Assembly: GCA_944376655.1 (NCBI GenBank)
Contig: CALWDJ010000021.1
Span: 1-37,932 of the forward strand
Direction of reading: 5' to 3'
Source of the DNA: an uncultured Clostridia bacterium
GTDB lineage: Bacteria > Bacillota > Clostridia > Oscillospirales > Acutalibacteraceae
DNA: 37,932 nt
Below are positions 15,398 through 24,812 of the stretch, in pieces. Made by a program: the position numbers and the translations under genes. Position 1 is the stretch's first letter, and each line of letters begins with the position of its first letter. The notes beneath the pieces were generated by a model. The model did not search any database, was not told the DNA's origin, and saw only the letters and a program-made list of their open reading frames with translations.

Positions 15398-16069
15398 ATG
15401 ATTTCAGTTGCGATAGACGGTCCGGCGGGTGCCGGAAAAAGCTCGATTTCCCGCATTGCGGCGAAAAAGCTCGGATTTATTTATGTTGATACCGGAGCGC
15501 TTTACAGAGCGGTGGGGCTGAAATTCGCCCTTTCGGGAGCGGATACCTCGCTTGACTGCGATATTGACGGTATTTTAAGCGAAACCGCCGTAGATATAAG
15601 GTTTGTAAACGGCGAGCAGCGGGTATTTCTCGACGGGGAGGACGTTTCAGATAAAATAAGAACGCCGAAGGCTTCGATGATGGCGTCGGCGGTTTCGGCG
15701 CGTCCGCAGGTAAGGGCGTTTCTGCTTGAAATGCAGCGTAAGCTCGCAAGGGAAAACAATGTGATTATGGACGGGCGCGATATCGGCACGGTAGTACTGC
15801 CTGACGCGGATGTAAAAATCTATCTTACCGCGTCGGCGGAGATAAGGGCGGAGCGGAGACTTAAGGAGCTGCTTGAAAAGGGTCAGCAGGTGACGTATGA
15901 TGAGGTTTACCGCGATATGGTAAAGCGCGACTACGACGATATGCACCGTGAGATAGCGCCGCTTAAAAAGGCGGAGGACGCCGTCACGGCGGACACAAGC
16001 GCGCTTGACTTTGATAAGTCGGTAGAGCTGATTCTTGAAATCGTGAAAAGGGAGACTGAAAAACAGTGA
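15398..16069 (+). CDS. cmk: Cytidylate kinase
   Basis: It phosphorylates CMP and dCMP to the diphosphates. I use ATG 15398 (223 aa) because AAAGGA precedes it and the P-loop follows at once (AIDGPAGAGKSS, residues about 5-16); the longer frame would run back into the previous gene. Other family segments are YVDTGALYRAVG and the DGRDIGTVVLPDADVKIYL substrate-binding region. It overlaps the next gene by 4 nt (GTGA). The cmk-ispH-rpsA order is typical of Clostridia, though the plsC gene often found between them is absent. Confidence 0.95.
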   Translation: MISVAIDGPAGAGKSSISRIAAKKLGFIYVDTGALYRAVGLKFALSGADTSLDCDIDGILSETAVDIRFVNGEQRVFLDGEDVSDKIRTPKASMMASAVSARPQVRAFLLEMQRKLARENNVIMDGRDIGTVVLPDADVKIYLTASAEIRAERRLKELLEKGQQVTYDEVYRDMVKRDYDDMHREIAPLKKAEDAVTADTSALDFDKSVELILEIVKRETEKQ

Positions 16070-18243
16070 GAATAACGCTTGCGAAAACCGCCGGCTTCTG
16101 CTTCGGGGTTGACAGAGCGGTCAAAACCGTTGAAGACCTGCTTGACAAAAGCGAGAGGGTATGCACGCTCGGGCCTATAATCCACAATCAGCAGCTTGTG
16201 GAGGAACTTGGCAGGAGGGGAGCGAGAATAGTCGGTTCACCAGATGAGGTAAAGATGGGTGAGACGCTGGTTATCCGCTCGCACGGAGTTGAGCCGGAGG
16301 TTATGGAAAACGCGGAAAGACTCGGTATAAAAACGGTGGACGCCACCTGCCCGTTTGTCGCGAAAATACATAAAATTGTCGCCGGAAAAAGCCGTGAAGG
16401 CTACACTGTTTTAATAGCCGGAGACGCTTCCCATCAGGAGGTAAAGGGTATCGTAGGGCACTGCCTGGGCAGCGTATTCGTCTTTTCTGGTGAAGAGGAG
16501 CTTTCGCTATTGCTTGAAAAAGAGGGAAATTTTGCCGGAAAACGCATAATTTTGGCGGCGCAGACCACTTTTAACGAGGAAATTTTTGCAAAGTGCAAAA
16601 ATATTTTAAAAAAAGTATGTACAAACGCCGAAATTTTTGATACAATATGTAATGCAACTTCTATGCGCCAGCAGGAAGCCCGGGAGCTGTCGCGCGTTAA
16701 TGACGCGATGATAGTCATAGGCGGAAGGCACAGCTCGAACACGGCAAAGCTGTTTGACGTGTGCAGGGAAAAATGCGGCAGGACGTATCTGATAGAAACG
16801 GCGGCGGAATTATCCGGTCTCGATTTGTCGGACTGCGGTTCGGTGGGAGTTGTTGCAGGCGCGTCAACGCCCGCAGGTATAATAAAGGAGGTTATTAAAA
16901 CCATGTCGGAAAATTTACAACCGGTAGAGGAACAGATGGAGGTAAAAGAATCTGTTCAGAAGAGCTTTGAGGAAATGACGGACGAGGAAGCATTTGAGGC
17001 TTCACTCAGCGGACTGACAGGCGACCAGAAGGTAGTAGGCACTGTTATCACTGTAAATCCCACGGAGATAACCGTGGACATCGGCAGGGGTGTCACAGGC
17101 TATGTTACCGCTGAAGAATTTTCTTCTGACCCTGATGTGAAGCTTACCGATGAGGTAAAGCCGGGTGATGAGCTCAATCTCATCATAATGAAAATCAATG
17201 ACCAGGAAGGAACCGCAATGCTTTCAAAGCGTCGTTACGATGCTATCGCCGGTTGGGACAATATAGTCGCTGCCAAGGATTCTGGCGAGATTGTTACCGG
17301 TTTCGTCAAGGACATTATCAAGGGCGGCGTCGTTGCTTACTCAAACAATGTAAGGGTATTCATTCCCGCTTCGCAGGCAACCGCTTCAAGGGGCGAGCCG
17401 CTTGAGGATCTCAAGGGAAAGGAAGTTTCCTTCCGCATAATTGAAATCGGCAGAGGTCACAGGGCGGTAGGCTCTATCCGCAGCGTGCTCAAAGAGCAGC
17501 GCAAGGCTGCGGAGGACAAAATCTGGGAAAACATTGCTGTCGGCGACCGTTTTACAGGTACTGTCAAGTCGCTCACCAGCTACGGCGCGTTTGTCGATAT
17601 CGGCGGAGTAGACGGTATGATACATATTTCCGAGCTTTCGTGGCAGAGAATAAAGAATCCGTCAGAGGTAGTTCTTGTAGGCGATACCGTTGAGGTTTAC
17701 GTAAAGGCGCTCGATACCGAGAAGAGGAAGATTTCTCTCGGCTACAAGAAGCCGGAGGATAACCCGTGGGTTATTTTCGAGAACAATTACAAGGTCGGCG
17801 ATACCGTAAAGGTTACAATCGTAAGTATGACCACATACGGCGCTTTTGCCCGTATAATTCCGGGTATTGACGGTCTTATCCACATTTCGCAGATCGCCAA
17901 TAAGCACGTTGCCAAGCCGCAGGACGAGCTTACGGTAGGTGAAGAGGTCGAGGCGAAGATAATCGCCGTCGATTCCGAGAAAAAGCGCGTAAGCCTTTCT
18001 ATCCGCGCTCTGCTTGAGCCTGAAGCTCCGGCTGAGGAAGCCGAAATTACCGCTCCCGACGAGGTAGTGTTTGAGGCGTCCGAAGAGACTGCCGCAGCCG
18101 CTGCCGAGGCACCGGCCGAAGAGGCACAGACTGAAACGGTTCCGGTAGAAGAAGCACCGGTTGAGGAAGCAAAAGCCGAGACCGCTCCGGTGGAAGAAGC
18201 TCCGGAAGCCGCCGCTGAGAAGACAGAGGAAACAGCGGAATAA
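16066..18243 (+). CDS. ispH-rpsA: IspH-ribosomal protein S1 fusion
   Basis: This 725-aa fusion starts at GTG inside the cmk stop. Residues 1-280 are HMBPP reductase, the last step of the MEP isoprenoid pathway, with the three Fe-S cysteines in GFCFGV, DATCPFV and DTICNAT. Residues 280-630 carry four S1 RNA-binding domains; clear examples are YGAFVDIGGVDGMIHISEL and YGAFARIIPGIDGLIHISQI (quoted within limits). The last about 95 residues are an acidic Ala/Glu/Pro-rich tail with repeated EEAP units. Such fusions are known in Clostridia. A perfect internal AAAGGAGG at 16884-16891, 11 nt before an in-frame ATG (16903, residue 280), would let the S1 part be made alone. Confidence 0.95.
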   Translation: MRITLAKTAGFCFGVDRAVKTVEDLLDKSERVCTLGPIIHNQQLVEELGRRGARIVGSPDEVKMGETLVIRSHGVEPEVMENAERLGIKTVDATCPFVAKIHKIVAGKSREGYTVLIAGDASHQEVKGIVGHCLGSVFVFSGEEELSLLLEKEGNFAGKRIILAAQTTFNEEIFAKCKNILKKVCTNAEIFDTICNATSMRQQEARELSRVNDAMIVIGGRHSSNTAKLFDVCREKCGRTYLIETAAELSGLDLSDCGSVGVVAGASTPAGIIKEVIKTMSENLQPVEEQMEVKESVQKSFEEMTDEEAFEASLSGLTGDQKVVGTVITVNPTEITVDIGRGVTGYVTAEEFSSDPDVKLTDEVKPGDELNLIIMKINDQEGTAMLSKRRYDAIAGWDNIVAAKDSGEIVTGFVKDIIKGGVVAYSNNVRVFIPASQATASRGEPLEDLKGKEVSFRIIEIGRGHRAVGSIRSVLKEQRKAAEDKIWENIAVGDRFTGTVKSLTSYGAFVDIGGVDGMIHISELSWQRIKNPSEVVLVGDTVEVYVKALDTEKRKISLGYKKPEDNPWVIFENNYKVGDTVKVTIVSMTTYGAFARIIPGIDGLIHISQIANKHVAKPQDELTVGEEVEAKIIAVDSEKKRVSLSIRALLEPEAPAEEAEITAPDEVVFEASEETAAAAAEAPAEEAQTETVPVEEAPVEEAKAETAPVEEAPEAAAEKTEETAE
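16884..16905 (+). promoter_or_regulatory. Internal ribosome binding site before the S1 part
   Basis: AAAGGAGG (16884-16891) followed after 11 nt by ATG 16903-16905, in frame with the fusion and exactly at the IspH/S1 junction. Translation from here would give a 446-aa S1-like protein starting MSENLQPVEEQ. The spacing is slightly long but workable. Confidence 0.6.
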
Positions 18244-18495: not shown

Positions 18496-19281
18496 CTAAA
18501 TTCCGAATAATTTTTCAGTATTTTCCTTTGCCGCTTTGAAAATTGTTTCCGGCGAGGTGTTTTTTATTTCGGCGATTTTTGCCGCCGTAAAATAAATCAT
18601 TGCCGAATGATTGAGCTTTGAGCGGTAGGGAACAGGGGTCATATAAGGCGCGTCGGTTTCAAGCAACAGACGGTTAAGCGGCAGCATTTCGACCACTTCG
18701 GGCAGCTTGCGCGCGTTTTTAAAAGTGAGCGCTCCGCCTATTCCTAAATACATACCGAGCTTAAGAATTTCCGCTGCCATTTCTGCGCTGCCCGAAAAGC
18801 TGTGCAGCACGCCTTTCGGACGGTGCTTTTTTAAAAGCTCAAGCGTGTCGGCATGGGCGTCGCGGTCGTGGACTATAACAGGCATTGAAAGACTGTTCGC
18901 AAGCTCAAGCTGTTCTTCAAAAAGCCGTTTCTGCTCTTCCTTGTTATCGCTTACCCAGTAATAGTCAAGCCCGATTTCGCCTATCGCCACACATTTTTTA
19001 TGCCCTGCCAGCGCCTTTATTTCCTCCGGTGTTCCGCCGCCGATATTTTCGGGGTGTATTCCTGCCGCCGCGTATATATAAGGATACTTTTCAGCAAGAA
19101 CCAGCGCCTTTTTTGAGGATTCGGTATCACAGCCGCAGTTTATAACGCCGCAAACGCCGTGCTTTGGCAGCCCGTCTAAAAGCTCGTCCCTTATCCCGTC
19201 GAATTTCCGGTCGTCATAATGAGCGTGGCTGTCAAAAATCAGTTGTTCACAGAGCGGACATTCATAAAGAAAATCAATCAT
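18496..19281 (-). CDS. tatD: TatD-family metal-dependent DNase
   Basis: This 261-aa TIM-barrel hydrolase has FDSHAHYDD (metal His pair, residues 16-24), GEIGLDYYW, PVIVHDRDAH, LHSFSGS and LLETDAPYMTP, all TatD/YcfH signatures. The ATG overlaps the metG stop (ATGA), and tatD next to metG is a common arrangement. The N terminus has 14 extra residues, including CPLC, before the FDSHAHYDD start usual for the family. Start choice therefore rests on the overlap. Family members are 3-prime exonucleases and D-aminoacyl-tRNA deacylase-like enzymes; the exact substrate is open. Confidence 0.9.
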   Translation of the reverse strand: MIDFLYECPLCEQLIFDSHAHYDDRKFDGIRDELLDGLPKHGVCGVINCGCDTESSKKALVLAEKYPYIYAAAGIHPENIGGGTPEEIKALAGHKKCVAIGEIGLDYYWVSDNKEEQKRLFEEQLELANSLSMPVIVHDRDAHADTLELLKKHRPKGVLHSFSGSAEMAAEILKLGMYLGIGGALTFKNARKLPEVVEMLPLNRLLLETDAPYMTPVPYRSKLNHSAMIYFTAAKIAEIKNTSPETIFKAAKENTEKLFGI

Positions 19282-21200
19282 CTTATTTTGCTGCCTGCCG
19301 GAACATTGTCTATAAACAGCACCTTTACGTCATCATCGGCGCAGTCCGCGGCAAGTATCATACCGTTCGACTCAACGCCGCACAGCGTGGCGGGTTTAAG
19401 GTTTGACACAAGGACCACTGTATGACCGATGAGTTCCTCCGGTTTGTAGTATTTCGCAATGCCCGAGGCTACGGTGCGCTCCTTGCCGCTGCCGTCGTCA
19501 AGGGTAAGCTTAAGGAGCTTTTTGGCTTTCGGCACAGGCTCACATTTAAGGATTTTCGCGGCTTTAAGCTCTACCTTGGCGAAATCCTCTATACCTATCT
19601 GCGCGGCGGTAACCGTGTTTTCAGCCTGTTCTTTTTCTTTTTCGGCCTTCTGCTCTGCGGCTATTTCCGCAAGTACCTTTTCAGCATCAATCCTTGCGAA
19701 AAGCGGAGTCGCCGCACCGACCGAGTATTCCTTTATTTCTCCGAAGCTGAGAACGGCATTATCACAGCAAAGCTGTGATTTTATCGCCTCGGCGCTTTCG
19801 GGCATAATGGGGGCAAGCAGGTTTGCGAGGAGACGTATACATTCAAGCAGATTGTAAAGCACGGTCTCAAGCTCTGCTTTTTTGCTTTCGTCTTTGGCAA
19901 GCACCCACGGAGCGGTCTCGTCAATATACTTGTTGCAGCGCTTGGCAAGATTCATCACCGTGTCGCACGCCTCGGCGTTATGGTAAATATCCATAAGGCT
20001 GTAATATTTCTGAACGGTCTCATCAGCGCAGGCTATAAGCTCGCTGTCAAATTCGCTTGCCGTGCCGCCTGCCTTTACATTTCCGCCGAAGTATTTGCCT
20101 GCCATCGCCACCGAGCGGTTTACAAGGTTGCCTAAAGTATTGGCAAGGTCGGCGTTATACTTTGTGATAAAGCTTTCATAGGTTATGGTGCCGTCCTGCG
20201 TAAAGGGCATTTCGGAAAGCAGGTAGTATCTTACCGCGTCGGTTCCGAAGCGCTTTGCCATATCGTCGGCGTAAATCACGTTGCCGCGGGATTTTGACAT
20301 CTTGTCCTCTCCCACAAGCAGCCACGGGTGACCGAGCACCTGCTTCGGCAGAGGAAGACCGAGCGCCATAAGGATAATCGGCCAGTATATTGTATGGAAA
20401 CGGACAATGTCCTTGCCTATAACGTGAAGGTCGGCAGGCCACAGTTTTTCAAATTGCTCTCCGCTGCCCTCCGGGTCGTAGCCTATTCCGGTAATATAGT
20501 TTGAGAGCGCGTCGAGCCAGACGTATACAACGTGCTTTTCATCAAACGGTACCGGAATACCCCATTTGAAAGAAGTTCGGGAAACGCACAGGTCTGAAAG
20601 TCCCGGCTTTAAAAAGTTGTTTATCATTTCGTTTTTTCTTGACTCGGGCTTTATGAAATCCGGGTTCTGCTCATAGTACTCAAGCAGCTTATCCTGATAT
20701 TTTGAGAGCTTGAGAAAATAGGCTTCCTCCTTGGCGTCTACAACCTCACGGCCGCAGTCGGGGCATTTTCCGTCCACAAGCTGCGAGGCGGTAAAGAAGG
20801 ACTCGCAGGGAACGCAGTATTTGCCCTCATAGTGTCCCTTATAGATATCACCCTGATCATACAGCTTTTTAAATATCTTCTGAATTACTTTTTCGTGATA
20901 ATCATCGGTGGTGCGGATAAACTTATCGTAGCTTGTGTTGAGACTGTCCCACACTCCGCGTATTTCAGATGAAACTTTATCAACATATTCCTTGGGAGAA
21001 ACACCCGCCGCGTTGGCGTATTCCTCTATCTTCTGTCCGTGCTCGTCGGAACCGGTCATCAGAAATACGTCAAAGCCCATCATACGCTTGTAGCGCGCTA
21101 TCATATCCGCGAGAACGATATCATAAGCGTTTCCGATATGTGGCTTGCCTGAAGTATAGGCGATAGCCGTGGTGATATAAAACTTTTTCTTTTCTGACAT
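19278..21200 (-). CDS. metG: Methionyl-tRNA synthetase
   Basis: This 640-aa enzyme shows the HIGH-type signature (GKPHIGNAY), a four-Cys zinc knuckle (CVPC with CPDC near 127-147), the KMSKSRGN loop (near 298) and a C-terminal OB-fold tRNA-binding domain (IEDFAKVELKAAKIL onwards, about 540-640) that dimerises the enzyme. Length is normal for the Firmicute form with this extra domain. GGAGG lies 8 nt before the ATG. It is the third gene of the rlmB operon. Confidence 0.96.
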   Translation of the reverse strand: MSEKKKFYITTAIAYTSGKPHIGNAYDIVLADMIARYKRMMGFDVFLMTGSDEHGQKIEEYANAAGVSPKEYVDKVSSEIRGVWDSLNTSYDKFIRTTDDYHEKVIQKIFKKLYDQGDIYKGHYEGKYCVPCESFFTASQLVDGKCPDCGREVVDAKEEAYFLKLSKYQDKLLEYYEQNPDFIKPESRKNEMINNFLKPGLSDLCVSRTSFKWGIPVPFDEKHVVYVWLDALSNYITGIGYDPEGSGEQFEKLWPADLHVIGKDIVRFHTIYWPIILMALGLPLPKQVLGHPWLLVGEDKMSKSRGNVIYADDMAKRFGTDAVRYYLLSEMPFTQDGTITYESFITKYNADLANTLGNLVNRSVAMAGKYFGGNVKAGGTASEFDSELIACADETVQKYYSLMDIYHNAEACDTVMNLAKRCNKYIDETAPWVLAKDESKKAELETVLYNLLECIRLLANLLAPIMPESAEAIKSQLCCDNAVLSFGEIKEYSVGAATPLFARIDAEKVLAEIAAEQKAEKEKEQAENTVTAAQIGIEDFAKVELKAAKILKCEPVPKAKKLLKLTLDDGSGKERTVASGIAKYYKPEELIGHTVVLVSNLKPATLCGVESNGMILAADCADDDVKVLFIDNVPAGSKIR

Positions 21201-21216
21201 ATATATTCCTCCCGTA

Positions 21217-24060
21217 TTACGGTTTTTGAGTTAAATATAGAATATATGAAACAACGGTGCTGATAAGGCAGTATAAAAGCACAAAGGCGCCCGATAAAAG
21301 CGAGCCGGAGCTGTTGAAGGACATATAGGCGAAAAGTATCGCGCCTATAACCGAAGTAAGTGTGTAAAGCACCGTAAGGAGTATGTTTGATTTTTTTATC
21401 CTGCTCGCGCTGCTTATTATAGATGCGAGCCCCACGGGGCTTCCCTTGTAGGCGGCGGGTGCCTGACAGCGGGGAGTGTAGGTGACCGCGTTTTTATACA
21501 TATGGCAGCCGGCGGCGCTCATTACCTTTACCGAATCCTCGTAAAGACCCATATAATCGCATATCATTTCCTCGGTCATATTCGGGTCCGAGCTGTTTAT
21601 AAGCATTGTTACTCCGAGAGCGGAAACCCGCCTTAATTCGCGTGATATATCAGGTCTTACGGTGTAGTGTACGGTAAGCAGAGCGTACGCTTTATCCTCC
21701 GCCGCTACATAAACGGGGAAAAAGCCCTGGCGGAGTATCTTGCGGTCTACCTCAACGCTCGGACATTCTATTCCGTGCGCCTCCATAAGCGTCCTGTTGC
21801 CGATAAAGAGCAGTCGGTCGTCTACCCAGCCCGATATGCCCATACGGTCCTCGTACTTCACCGTGTCCGAATCCGGCAGAACCACGTTTTTATCGGTTCC
21901 GGCTATCTTCTTGAATATGGGGGCGAGAGGGCTGTTAAGCGCATCGGTAAGCGAGGCGGCGCGGATTATGGTATCGTCTATGCTGTTGTCGGACAAAAGC
22001 TGCATATTGTGAAGCGTTACCGTGCCGGACGGGAAAATATCCTCCGAGCTGAAAACAACGGCGTTGGCATACTCGATATGCTCCGCCCCGACCTTTCCGG
22101 CTATCATTGCGCCGCAGCGGCTGAGCCTTTTGGCGGCTGAGGCAAACGGCAGCGAGTCAATGAAAAACAGAACCGGCATTGCGGCAAAGCACTGCACTGC
22201 GGCGGCGGCGTAAAAGCCGTAAACCGCTCCGTCAAAATACGACGCTCCGGCAAATCCTACGGCAAGTGAAAGCACAAGTGAAACGAGGGTTACCGCCGGC
22301 AGCTTGCCTGCTAAAACCACCCTGAAGGTGGAATATTTCATAAATCCGTCTATATGCGCGGTCCTCTGCGGGGCGGCGGCAAGCACGTCGCCCTCAATCG
22401 AGTTCTTCGCCATGGCGAAGGTCACGGCGCGGTCGTCTATCAGCTTTACGGCGCGCTTAGGGGTGTTGCCCGCTATCTGACGGAAGCTCAGAAGCCTGCC
22501 CGACGCCGCGAGAAAGGCGCATACAGAGCGGAACGAGAGTATAATTCCGCAAAGCAGCAGCATATCCATCGCAGGCTCGCTCGCATATGCGGCGGCCACC
22601 GCGTAGGCGAGCACCGAAAGCGACGCCGTTACGGCGCATATTTCAGGAGACGAGCGCCTGCTTATTATGCGGGCGACGCTGCCGAACATATCGGCGTTTA
22701 TAACTATTATTATTGCCAGAACCGCCGTACATATTATATCAGCCGTGCGGGTGTGGGCAAGTATCGTCTCTGAAAGAAAGGGCAGCTTTGAGCAGGCGAG
22801 CACAAGAGTAAAAAGAACCGAGAAAAACGCGCGCAGGAAATGGCTGCGTTTTTTTACCGAGAGCATTCTTAAAAAATGCTTCGCGTCCTTTTCGGAGCGG
22901 AACTCCTCTTTCGGCTCGTATTCGTCAAACTCGGTCTGCTCGAGCTTCAGCTCGCTTTCGTGGGCTTCGGTCCCGTCGTCTGTAAGCTCTGCAAGCTCTC
23001 CCGTAAGGTCAAGCGGCCTTGTCTGTGAGCTTACGCTGATTCTTGATGTGCTGTCGCTGTCCGCCACAGGTGTGAACTTTATTGTGGCGGTGTGGGACAT
23101 ATCCGGCGTTTCGGGCTTTTCGGGCTGACTGTCGCTTGTGTCGATATCGGATATCACGTGAAAAACGTTTTTGTTTGACGTGGCGTTGCCCGAAACCGAC
23201 GAAATTATGTCCTCATATACCTCCGGCTCTCTTTTCGGGGCGGCTTTTTCCTCTTTTACAGGCTTACTGACAGGCTTGGCGGCTTTATCTGCCGGTTTCT
23301 GCGGTTCGGCTTTCGCAGGATTATCCGAAAAGCCGTATTTCCCGAGGTCATCAAAGGATATGTCATACTTTTGCGAGAGCTTGTCAAGCGTTTTGAGGCT
23401 TTCGCTTTTAAGTATCTCCGCCACGCTTTCGAGCTTGTATGTAGGGGCGGCGTGCATCGCGGAGTCGTCGCCCTCGCCGTCAAGAATAAAGGGGCGGCAC
23501 TTTTCAAGCAGGGTTTTTTTGCTCTTGACAGCGTCACTTTCACCGTTACCGTGCCGTGTTTCCTCGGCGGCGTGCGCCGCCGGCGCTGTCTTTTCGGGCG
23601 CGGGCGTGTCCTTGCCGTTCTCACTGCCGGCACTGCGCTCCGCCTGCCGGAACGCCAGATTTGCTTCAGACTGCGCCGAGTTATGCGTATCGGAAGAAGA
23701 TGAAGCGGGAGCGGAAAAGACGGCGGCAGATGCATACTGAGCACCGTCAGGCTCCGGCTTTTCCGCATTTGCCTTATTGGTGCCGGGCGCTGTCTGCTGC
23801 GGCGCATTGTCCGTTTTCGGTTCTTCGGAAGCGCTTTTGTCCTCCGACATTTCATTCATTTTCTTTATAAGCGATTCGAGCGCTCCGGTAGCGGTGTCGC
23901 GCTCCTGCTTGAACCTGCTTTGAAGCTCGGATATTTCCTCAGGCGTCACGGTGCCGTTTCCGTGCGGCTGTCCGTCCTCCGCAAAGGCGCCGAAGCCGCT
24001 GCTTTCATCGTCCGAAAAGATGAAAAAATCATCGTTTTTCTTTTTTGAAAAAAAACTCAT
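21217..24060 (-). CDS. Degenerate P-type-ATPase-like membrane protein with long disordered N terminus
   Basis: This 947-aa protein has residues 1-400 acidic, low-complexity and probably cytoplasmic. Eight membrane segments follow in a P1B-like 4+2+2 order (about 408-428, 440-458, 473-493, 497-518, 587-608, 611-633, 893-914, 919-943). Between the second and third groups lie relics of P-type domains. There is a shortened actuator region with GDVL (557-560) and IDG (570-572) but no TGES. VVFSSEDIFPSGTVT (668-682) stands where VVFDKTGTLT is expected. FIGNR (752-756) sits in a nucleotide-domain-like segment, and LINSSDPN (820-827) stands in place of MLTGDN. The CPC motif is also missing. It should not be able to form the phospho-enzyme. 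It overlaps rlmB by 4 nt. Function is unknown. Confidence 0.75.
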   Translation of the reverse strand: MSFFSKKKNDDFFIFSDDESSGFGAFAEDGQPHGNGTVTPEEISELQSRFKQERDTATGALESLIKKMNEMSEDKSASEEPKTDNAPQQTAPGTNKANAEKPEPDGAQYASAAVFSAPASSSSDTHNSAQSEANLAFRQAERSAGSENGKDTPAPEKTAPAAHAAEETRHGNGESDAVKSKKTLLEKCRPFILDGEGDDSAMHAAPTYKLESVAEILKSESLKTLDKLSQKYDISFDDLGKYGFSDNPAKAEPQKPADKAAKPVSKPVKEEKAAPKREPEVYEDIISSVSGNATSNKNVFHVISDIDTSDSQPEKPETPDMSHTATIKFTPVADSDSTSRISVSSQTRPLDLTGELAELTDDGTEAHESELKLEQTEFDEYEPKEEFRSEKDAKHFLRMLSVKKRSHFLRAFFSVLFTLVLACSKLPFLSETILAHTRTADIICTAVLAIIIVINADMFGSVARIISRRSSPEICAVTASLSVLAYAVAAAYASEPAMDMLLLCGIILSFRSVCAFLAASGRLLSFRQIAGNTPKRAVKLIDDRAVTFAMAKNSIEGDVLAAAPQRTAHIDGFMKYSTFRVVLAGKLPAVTLVSLVLSLAVGFAGASYFDGAVYGFYAAAAVQCFAAMPVLFFIDSLPFASAAKRLSRCGAMIAGKVGAEHIEYANAVVFSSEDIFPSGTVTLHNMQLLSDNSIDDTIIRAASLTDALNSPLAPIFKKIAGTDKNVVLPDSDTVKYEDRMGISGWVDDRLLFIGNRTLMEAHGIECPSVEVDRKILRQGFFPVYVAAEDKAYALLTVHYTVRPDISRELRRVSALGVTMLINSSDPNMTEEMICDYMGLYEDSVKVMSAAGCHMYKNAVTYTPRCQAPAAYKGSPVGLASIISSASRIKKSNILLTVLYTLTSVIGAILFAYMSFNSSGSLLSGAFVLLYCLISTVVSYILYLTQKP

Positions 24061-24812
24061 TGCGGCCTCCTTTTCCTGACTGCCTCGTACATCAGCACGC
24101 CGGCTGCAACCGACGCGTTGAGCGAATTTATTTTCCCGAACATCGGCAGGCTAATTATTTTATCGCACTTTTTGGCGGTAAGGGCGCCTATTCCGCTGCC
24201 CTCGTTGCCTATGACTATCGCGCAGGGAATATCAAAATCGGTTTTTGTGTAATCCTCTCCGTCCATATCGGCGCCGAAAACCCATATTCCGCGGCTTTTA
24301 AGCTCGTCTATGGTATTCGCGATGTTTGTGACTCTCGCGACCGGCATATATTCAAGCGCGCCGCTCGCCGCTTTCGCCACGGTGGCGTTAAGCGAGGCGC
24401 TTCTGCGCTTCGGTATGATAATCCCGTGCACTCCGCAGGCCTCGGCGGTCCTGACGATAGCGCCGAGATTGTGCGGGTCTTCTATTTCATCGCATATTAT
24501 GATAAACGGCTTTTCGTTTCGTTCCTCCGCCGAGGCGAGAATATCCCCGACCGTGGCGTATTCCTGTGCCGCGAACATAACGGCGACACCCTGATGGTTC
24601 GCGCCGCCGCAGTAATAATCGAGCTTCTGGGGACTTACTTCCTTTATCAGAATCCCCTTGGCGCGGCATTTGGCAATTATCGCCGTAACCGAGCCGCCCG
24701 AAACCCCGTGCGCCACCAGCAGGCGGTCTATCTCTCTGCCTGAGCGTACCGCTTCAAGCACCGGATTCCTGCCGCATATTATATTGCCGCTTCTTTCTTC
24801 GTTATTCTGCAT
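24057..24812 (-). CDS. rlmB: 23S rRNA 2-prime-O-methyltransferase, TrmH/RlmB family
   Basis: This 251-aa SPOUT methyltransferase has an N-terminal substrate-binding domain starting GNIICGRNPVLEAVRSG, and the C-terminal knot motifs: EDPHNLGAIVRTAEACG, GNEGSGIG, and LPMFGKINSLNASVAAGV (the last two near 205-240). It would use S-adenosylmethionine to methylate a guanosine in 23S rRNA (G2251 in E. coli numbering). It is first in the operon, with a promoter at 24851-24859 and AAAAAAGGA about 10 nt before the ATG. Confidence 0.92.
   Translation of the reverse strand: MQNNEERSGNIICGRNPVLEAVRSGREIDRLLVAHGVSGGSVTAIIAKCRAKGILIKEVSPQKLDYYCGGANHQGVAVMFAAQEYATVGDILASAEERNEKPFIIICDEIEDPHNLGAIVRTAEACGVHGIIIPKRRSASLNATVAKAASGALEYMPVARVTNIANTIDELKSRGIWVFGADMDGEDYTKTDFDIPCAIVIGNEGSGIGALTAKKCDKIISLPMFGKINSLNASVAAGVLMYEAVRKRRPQ

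Follow-up and report, generated by a model that had tools for sequence, protein, structure and literature searches.

A catalytically degenerate P1B-type ATPase branch as a core gene, co-inherited with rlmB, in one order of Clostridia

The comparisons reported here support that an intact 947-codon reading frame in the analysed stretch of 37,932 nucleotides (hereafter, the window) encodes a pseudoenzyme, which by sequence and predicted models would descend from a CopA-like P1B metal pump (Table 1). Within one order of gut Clostridia, the gene belongs to the core genome, is mostly present as a single copy and is inherited together with rlmB. This order-wide distribution had gone unseen in the first-pass annotation of this DNA. 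With a probability of roughly 45%, we suggest that the protein is a non-pumping pseudo-P1B ATPase that would serve as a membrane-anchored adaptor or sensor, most likely in envelope assembly.

Table 1. Coordinates of the pseudo-P1B-ATPase gene, its protein regions and its neighbours in the window
Feature	Position	Strand	Basis
Pseudo-P1B-ATPase gene, 947 aa	21217..24060	-	ORF; NCBIfam PRK10671 CopA and PDB 3rfu matches
N-terminal region, residues 1-395, presumed cytoplasmic, disorder-like composition	22876..24060	-	charge-hydropathy score, dN/dS
Residues 183-240, conserved island LLEKC...ESVAEIL...LSxKY..FDxLG	23341..23514	-	genus consensus
Residues 406-525, membrane helices 1-4	22486..22845	-	hydropathy, DSSP of AlphaFold model
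Residues 526-577, reduced actuator-domain region without TGES	22330..22485	-	alignment with canonical pumps
Residues 578-643, membrane helices 5-6, CPx metal site lost (AMPV)	22132..22329	-	alignment, hydropathy
Residues 668-679, VVFSSEDIFPSG replacing VVFDKTGTLTxG	22024..22059	-	alignments, sequence
Residues 677-800, nucleotide-binding-domain fold; HP His and first Gly of GxG replaced	21661..22032	-	
Residues 825-827, DPN; D825 is the Asp of TGD	21580..21588	-	103-member alignment
Residues 891-945, last two membrane helices	21226..21390	-	hydropathy, DSSP of AlphaFold model
rlmB-like rRNA methyltransferase gene, directly upstream, ATGA overlap	24057..24812	-	junction sequence
metG, directly downstream, genus-specific neighbour	19278..21200	-	neighbourhood survey

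The similarity of the protein to P1B-type ATPases is far above chance. It spans residues ~587-842 and is seen with the NCBIfam PRK10671 CopA model (E=2.1e-14) and with PDB 3rfu (E=2.5e-10), while the P1B profile scores lie far under the curated cut-offs for working pumps. Over the whole chain, Pfam gave only a sub-threshold HAD-hydrolase match and no cyclase domain, and PHROGs gave no match. By hydropathy and the DSSP helices of the AlphaFold model, the C-terminal ~550 residues contain membrane helices in the order 4+2+2, as the first-pass annotation had described, with the A region between TM4 and TM5 and the P and N domains between TM6 and TM7, which is the P1B arrangement. The P- and N-domain folds are present in the predicted models, and that of the N domain is well preserved. 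The earlier proposal of P1B descent is supported. The GDV/IDG actuator remnant proposed in the same annotation is uncertain: one sub-threshold alignment to 7qbz (-0.7 bits) speaks for it, but the multiple alignment places GDV elsewhere. The stretch from TM4 to TM5 measures only ~50 residues. In overall design, the family therefore shares with heavy-metal ATPases such as CopA and ZntA (NF007952, TIGR01525; PDB 4bbj and 3rfu, which we take to be LpCopA) the domain order, the 4+2+2 helices and the P/N folds. It differs from them in lacking DKTGT, TGES, HP and GDGxND, in almost never having a CPx Cys, in its shrunken actuator region and long N-terminal arm, and in being an order-restricted core gene beside rlmB.

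The extent of the catalytic loss was followed in an alignment that combined 103 distinct members of the family with three ordinary pumps of the same order; duplicates of identical sequence, the fragmentary L066 and L073, and loci L076-L105, which had been fetched a second time, were left out. At the phosphorylated Asp, an Asp is found in 20 of the 103 members and a Lys at +1 in none; the window protein has Ser, within the altered segment VVFSSEDIFPSG that had been noted from residue 668 and that, like the reading frame itself, is confirmed in the sequence. In a set of 40 fetched family members, none contains the string DKTGT. Among the 103 aligned members, none has Gly at the TGES Gly column, so that the phosphatase loop is gone, none has the ATP-contacting HP histidine of the N domain, and all have a gap at the GDGxND Mg site. 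Cys occupies the first CPx column in TM6 in two members and is not among the seven commonest residues at the last. The earlier account of missing TGES, CPC and DKTGT motifs is thus correct for the window protein, which lacks GDGxND as well. That account had also listed TGDN as missing, and here only the motif is lost: its Asp is kept in 102/103 members (D825 of SSDPN in the window), a retention first recognized here, and the Asn two residues further on is found in 92/103. The letters TGDN do occur in one member (L124), but inside its N-terminal arm.

Other positions carry new residues. Relative to DKTGT, position +3 is acidic (Asp or Glu) in 92/103 members, +5 is Phe in 94/103, +6 is Pro in 93/103 and +8 is Gly in 72/103, and the second Gly of GxG (residue 741) is kept in 98% of the aligned family. 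The P/N head, rather than the membrane part, holds most columns with strong conservation. Taken with the family-wide losses, this looks like ordered replacement more than decay. Because the phosphorylation cycle of the established P-type mechanism needs residues that are now gone, we infer that the pumping cycle should not run in this family. By its sequence, the family is P1B in descent and departs from P1B pumps in every catalytic feature that was compared, which, together with the predicted P/N folds, upholds the earlier view that phosphorylation chemistry was lost while the fold was kept.

These residues are also where a receptor function has to be weighed, in which the P/N head would bind a nucleotide or an ion without hydrolysis, shift the membrane part or the arm, and so report metabolic or metal state. 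The well-preserved N-domain fold and the retained Gly741 fit such a receptor, and D825 together with the acidic residue at DKTGT+3 could form a new binding site; on the other hand, the ATP-contacting His is absent and GDGxND is deleted in every aligned member. On balance, we consider a receptor of this kind possible but doubtful.

The family is found throughout the order. When genomes were drawn evenly from the order, it was present at E<=1e-45 in 184 of 197 genomes and in 24 of 26 families, with a single match in 183 of the 184 positive genomes; among genomes of good quality, 150 of 155 were positive, and the 13 misses comprise eight genomes under the quality bar and five that are not. A first survey had matched 57 of 60 genomes, though in G040 the match was to an ordinary pump (L068). 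In a survey of the class, all 12 same-order genomes, including that of the window, matched at E<=3.2e-101, while the best match among the other 279 was 6.3e-38. Of 398 genomes surveyed across the phylum, six matched at E<=1e-42, all from the same order, against none of the other 392; the misses listed for this survey begin at the level "same class", and few candidates were scored per genome, so that a rare member outside the order could be missed. From the local matches at E>=6.3e-38, we infer that the matches outside the order are ordinary pumps.

The survey of gene neighbourhoods identified rlmB as the constant neighbour and confined metG to the genus of the window (both names, read by eye, are presumptive). 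rlmB lies directly upstream at 49 of 50 same-genus loci, a sample in which at least seven are second copies from another collection (equal in length and score), and at 59 of the 62 sampled from the rest of the order. The three loci outside the genus that depart from this are one that begins at a contig end (L121), one with no rlmB at this place (L064), and one in which the gene is split by a stop, with its first part still following rlmB (L047). metG, which in the window starts 16 bases past the stop of the pseudo-P1B-ATPase gene, lies downstream at 49/50 same-genus loci but at 0/62 elsewhere. The metG adjacency had been taken as a sign of a housekeeping operon; since it is genus-only, that meaning is dropped. 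The linkage to rlmB is itself no pointer to envelope assembly. Separately, positions 16066-18243 of the window hold a 725-aa ORF resembling a fusion of IspH with ribosomal protein S1, an arrangement that is usual in Clostridia.

Pseudoenzymes often regulate active paralogues, and the protein might accordingly be the regulatory subunit of an active P1B pump in the same cell. Canonical P-type ATPases with DKTGT were read in three genomes from this order (L068, L074 and L075), which means that the pseudoenzyme is not necessarily a substitute for them and that such a pair is conceivable. However, the constant neighbour is rlmB and not a pump gene, and an order-wide core distribution is atypical of metal-resistance pumps; we regard a pseudo/active pair as quite unlikely. 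Even less probable is an active transporter with another chemistry, in which the new acidic residue or D825 would be phosphorylated or transport would be passive and facilitated. The 8-helix layout and the two conserved acidic P-domain positions would be in keeping with it, but the family-wide loss of the phosphatase loop, the ATP-site His and GDGxND, the near-complete loss of the CPx Cys, and the concentration of strong conservation in the P/N head rather than the membrane part make it very improbable.

The gene is under purifying selection. In the closest pair (L001/L002), dN/dS was 0.054 for the core versus 0.23 for the arm, while in L012/L013 arm and core were equal; the 13 pairs tried, in most of which dS is saturated, gave 11 core values, ten between 0.054 and 0.21 and one of 0.56 (L120/L122). 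A decaying pseudogene or assembly artefact, for which one could cite the lost catalytic motifs and one in-frame TGA in each of the family genes of G058 (L047) and G047 (L066), has practically no standing given the low core dN/dS, the strictly conserved new motifs and, among the family matches listed, a stop inside the match in G058 only.

The adaptor or sensor reading gives a central role to the N-terminal arm, the length of which varies widely among family members. In the window protein, the charge-hydropathy score is -0.12 for residues 1-380 versus +0.385 for residues 395-947. The first-pass annotation had described a disordered tail of 400 residues; ~390 residues do have a disorder-like composition, but the genus-conserved island at ~183-240 means that the tail is not uniformly disordered. 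In 42 genus sequences, the mean consensus per 20 residues is 0.59-0.64 in this island versus 0.06-0.44 in the other blocks of residues 1-300, and a second conserved stretch lies at about residues 321-360. Outside the genus, many arms open with a short helix-like motif, for instance FSLDDILAEF, which had not been recognized previously. Of 59 non-genus arms, 23 match a strict pattern drawn up after the arms had been viewed, and in 21 the match falls no further than ~110 residues into the frame; 200 shuffles gave a mean of 0.02 matches (maximum 1) and 1758 other ORFs gave none. When scored with a matrix derived from 24 members, the 35 held-out non-genus arms included 10 at p<0.01 and 18 at p<0.05. 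In the genus of the window, the motif is weak or absent: five of 49 arms scored at p<0.01 and nine at p<0.05, and the window arm has no significant match (p=0.096), its best segment being ESVAEILKSES inside the island.

The motif also occurs in other proteins. A profile built from the family arms gave 59 matches in 50 of 108 good genomes, of which 46 were taken as family genes, provisionally so for those in G388, G398, G426, G437, G465 and G474 and for the contig-end short frames in G374 and G454. As a comparison of totals, the 13 matches outside the family stand against five for the reversed motif. Seven of the 13 are ends of membrane proteins, namely an ABC-2 exporter permease, an LCP protein, two VanW proteins, LspA, the membrane protein L186 and a second pseudo-P1B protein, and these ends would face the cytoplasm. 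The other six fall in soluble-looking proteins, in what look like ordinary helices, and are probably chance matches; by eye, we take these proteins to be RecF-, HisE-, AroQ- and MazG-like proteins, rlmB and an HTH protein. A motif search within one taxonomic family matched 27 of 41 genomes at E<=1. Three of the matched proteins are sortase-like, with motif E values from 0.005 to 0.8; Pfam identified a sortase in two of these but gave no match for L165, which is truncated where its locus stops. In L151, L153, L165, L184, L190, L191 and L202, an N-terminal DDILxE-type motif is followed by a low-complexity linker, and these linker-bearing carriers are ABC-2 permease, sortase-like, LCP and VanW proteins. 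In L154, L186 and L187 (LspA), the same kind of motif stands at the extreme C-terminus, so that it may act at either end. Two further candidates were rejected: LspA as a regular carrier, with one LspA only (G413, L187) and none of 43 printed tails by eye, and mimicry of the FtsZ tail, where two of 12 FtsZ tails beat shuffles at p<0.05 and the likeness is superficial.

The second pseudo-P1B protein belongs to a separate lineage in genus g212 (L185, 38-2089, minus strand; L262, frame from 1372, plus strand), found at E<=1e-55 in two of 61 genomes of its family, both from this one genus. L185 matches TIGR01525 at E=4.5e-56. Like the window family, this lineage has P1B homology, a replaced phosphorylated Asp (FDKTGT has become FNKTGT in L185 and FSLSGT in L262, i.e. 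N or S for Asp), no GDGxND and the N-terminal motif, which was scored in L185 and recognized by eye in L262. Unlike the window family, it keeps TGDN and HP. Because L185, at -7 bits against the family model, falls outside the present family, the combination of the motif with catalytic loss may have arisen on two occasions. A gene that by eye resembles fructose-bisphosphate aldolase adjoins this lineage.

Based on these data, we suggest a model in which a pump ancestor would have lost catalysis and kept its membrane layout and P/N folds. Through its conserved acidic-phi-F-P and D-P-N segments, the P/N head would bind a ligand or partner; the N-terminal arm, long and flexible, would recruit a cytoplasmic partner; and the setting may be the organisation of cell-envelope assembly. 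The sensor, scaffold or regulator role suggested in the first-pass annotation is, in this light, plausible. The envelope is proposed because the arm motif is common to LCP, VanW/peptidoglycan-binding, sortase-like and ABC-2 (polysaccharide-type) exporter proteins; this shared motif is the one observation that would make it the likeliest setting, the window protein itself being without a significant motif. A further-reaching version, which we consider unlikely, holds that the protein is a non-catalytic scaffold order-wide and that a common cytoplasmic receptor reads the DDILxE-type tag on its carriers (the scaffold, LCP ligases, VanW proteins, sortases and exporters) as an order-specific recruitment code.

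In the open-access literature covered, no described bacterial pseudo-P-type-ATPase family was found, in agreement with the first-pass annotation. The nearest precedent found is the malarial guanylyl cyclase PfGC-beta, which carries a degenerate P4-ATPase-like domain (PMC6592433); this domain is eukaryotic, P4-related and fused to cyclases, whereas the window family is bacterial, P1B-related and has no cyclase. P6 ATPases, of which CtpE is treated as a Ca2+ uptake system (PMC10654040), resemble the window family as a recently separated prokaryotic P-type family. However, in the window family the catalytic residues are gone.

P-type ATPases rank among the most thoroughly studied pumps. The present family is an order-specific membrane protein under selection that offers a function to test. 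A pseudoenzyme branch kept as a core gene throughout an order would show that a P-type fold was recruited for a role other than transport, and the catalytic loss turns this into a directly testable question, namely what role a P-type fold may play without pumping.
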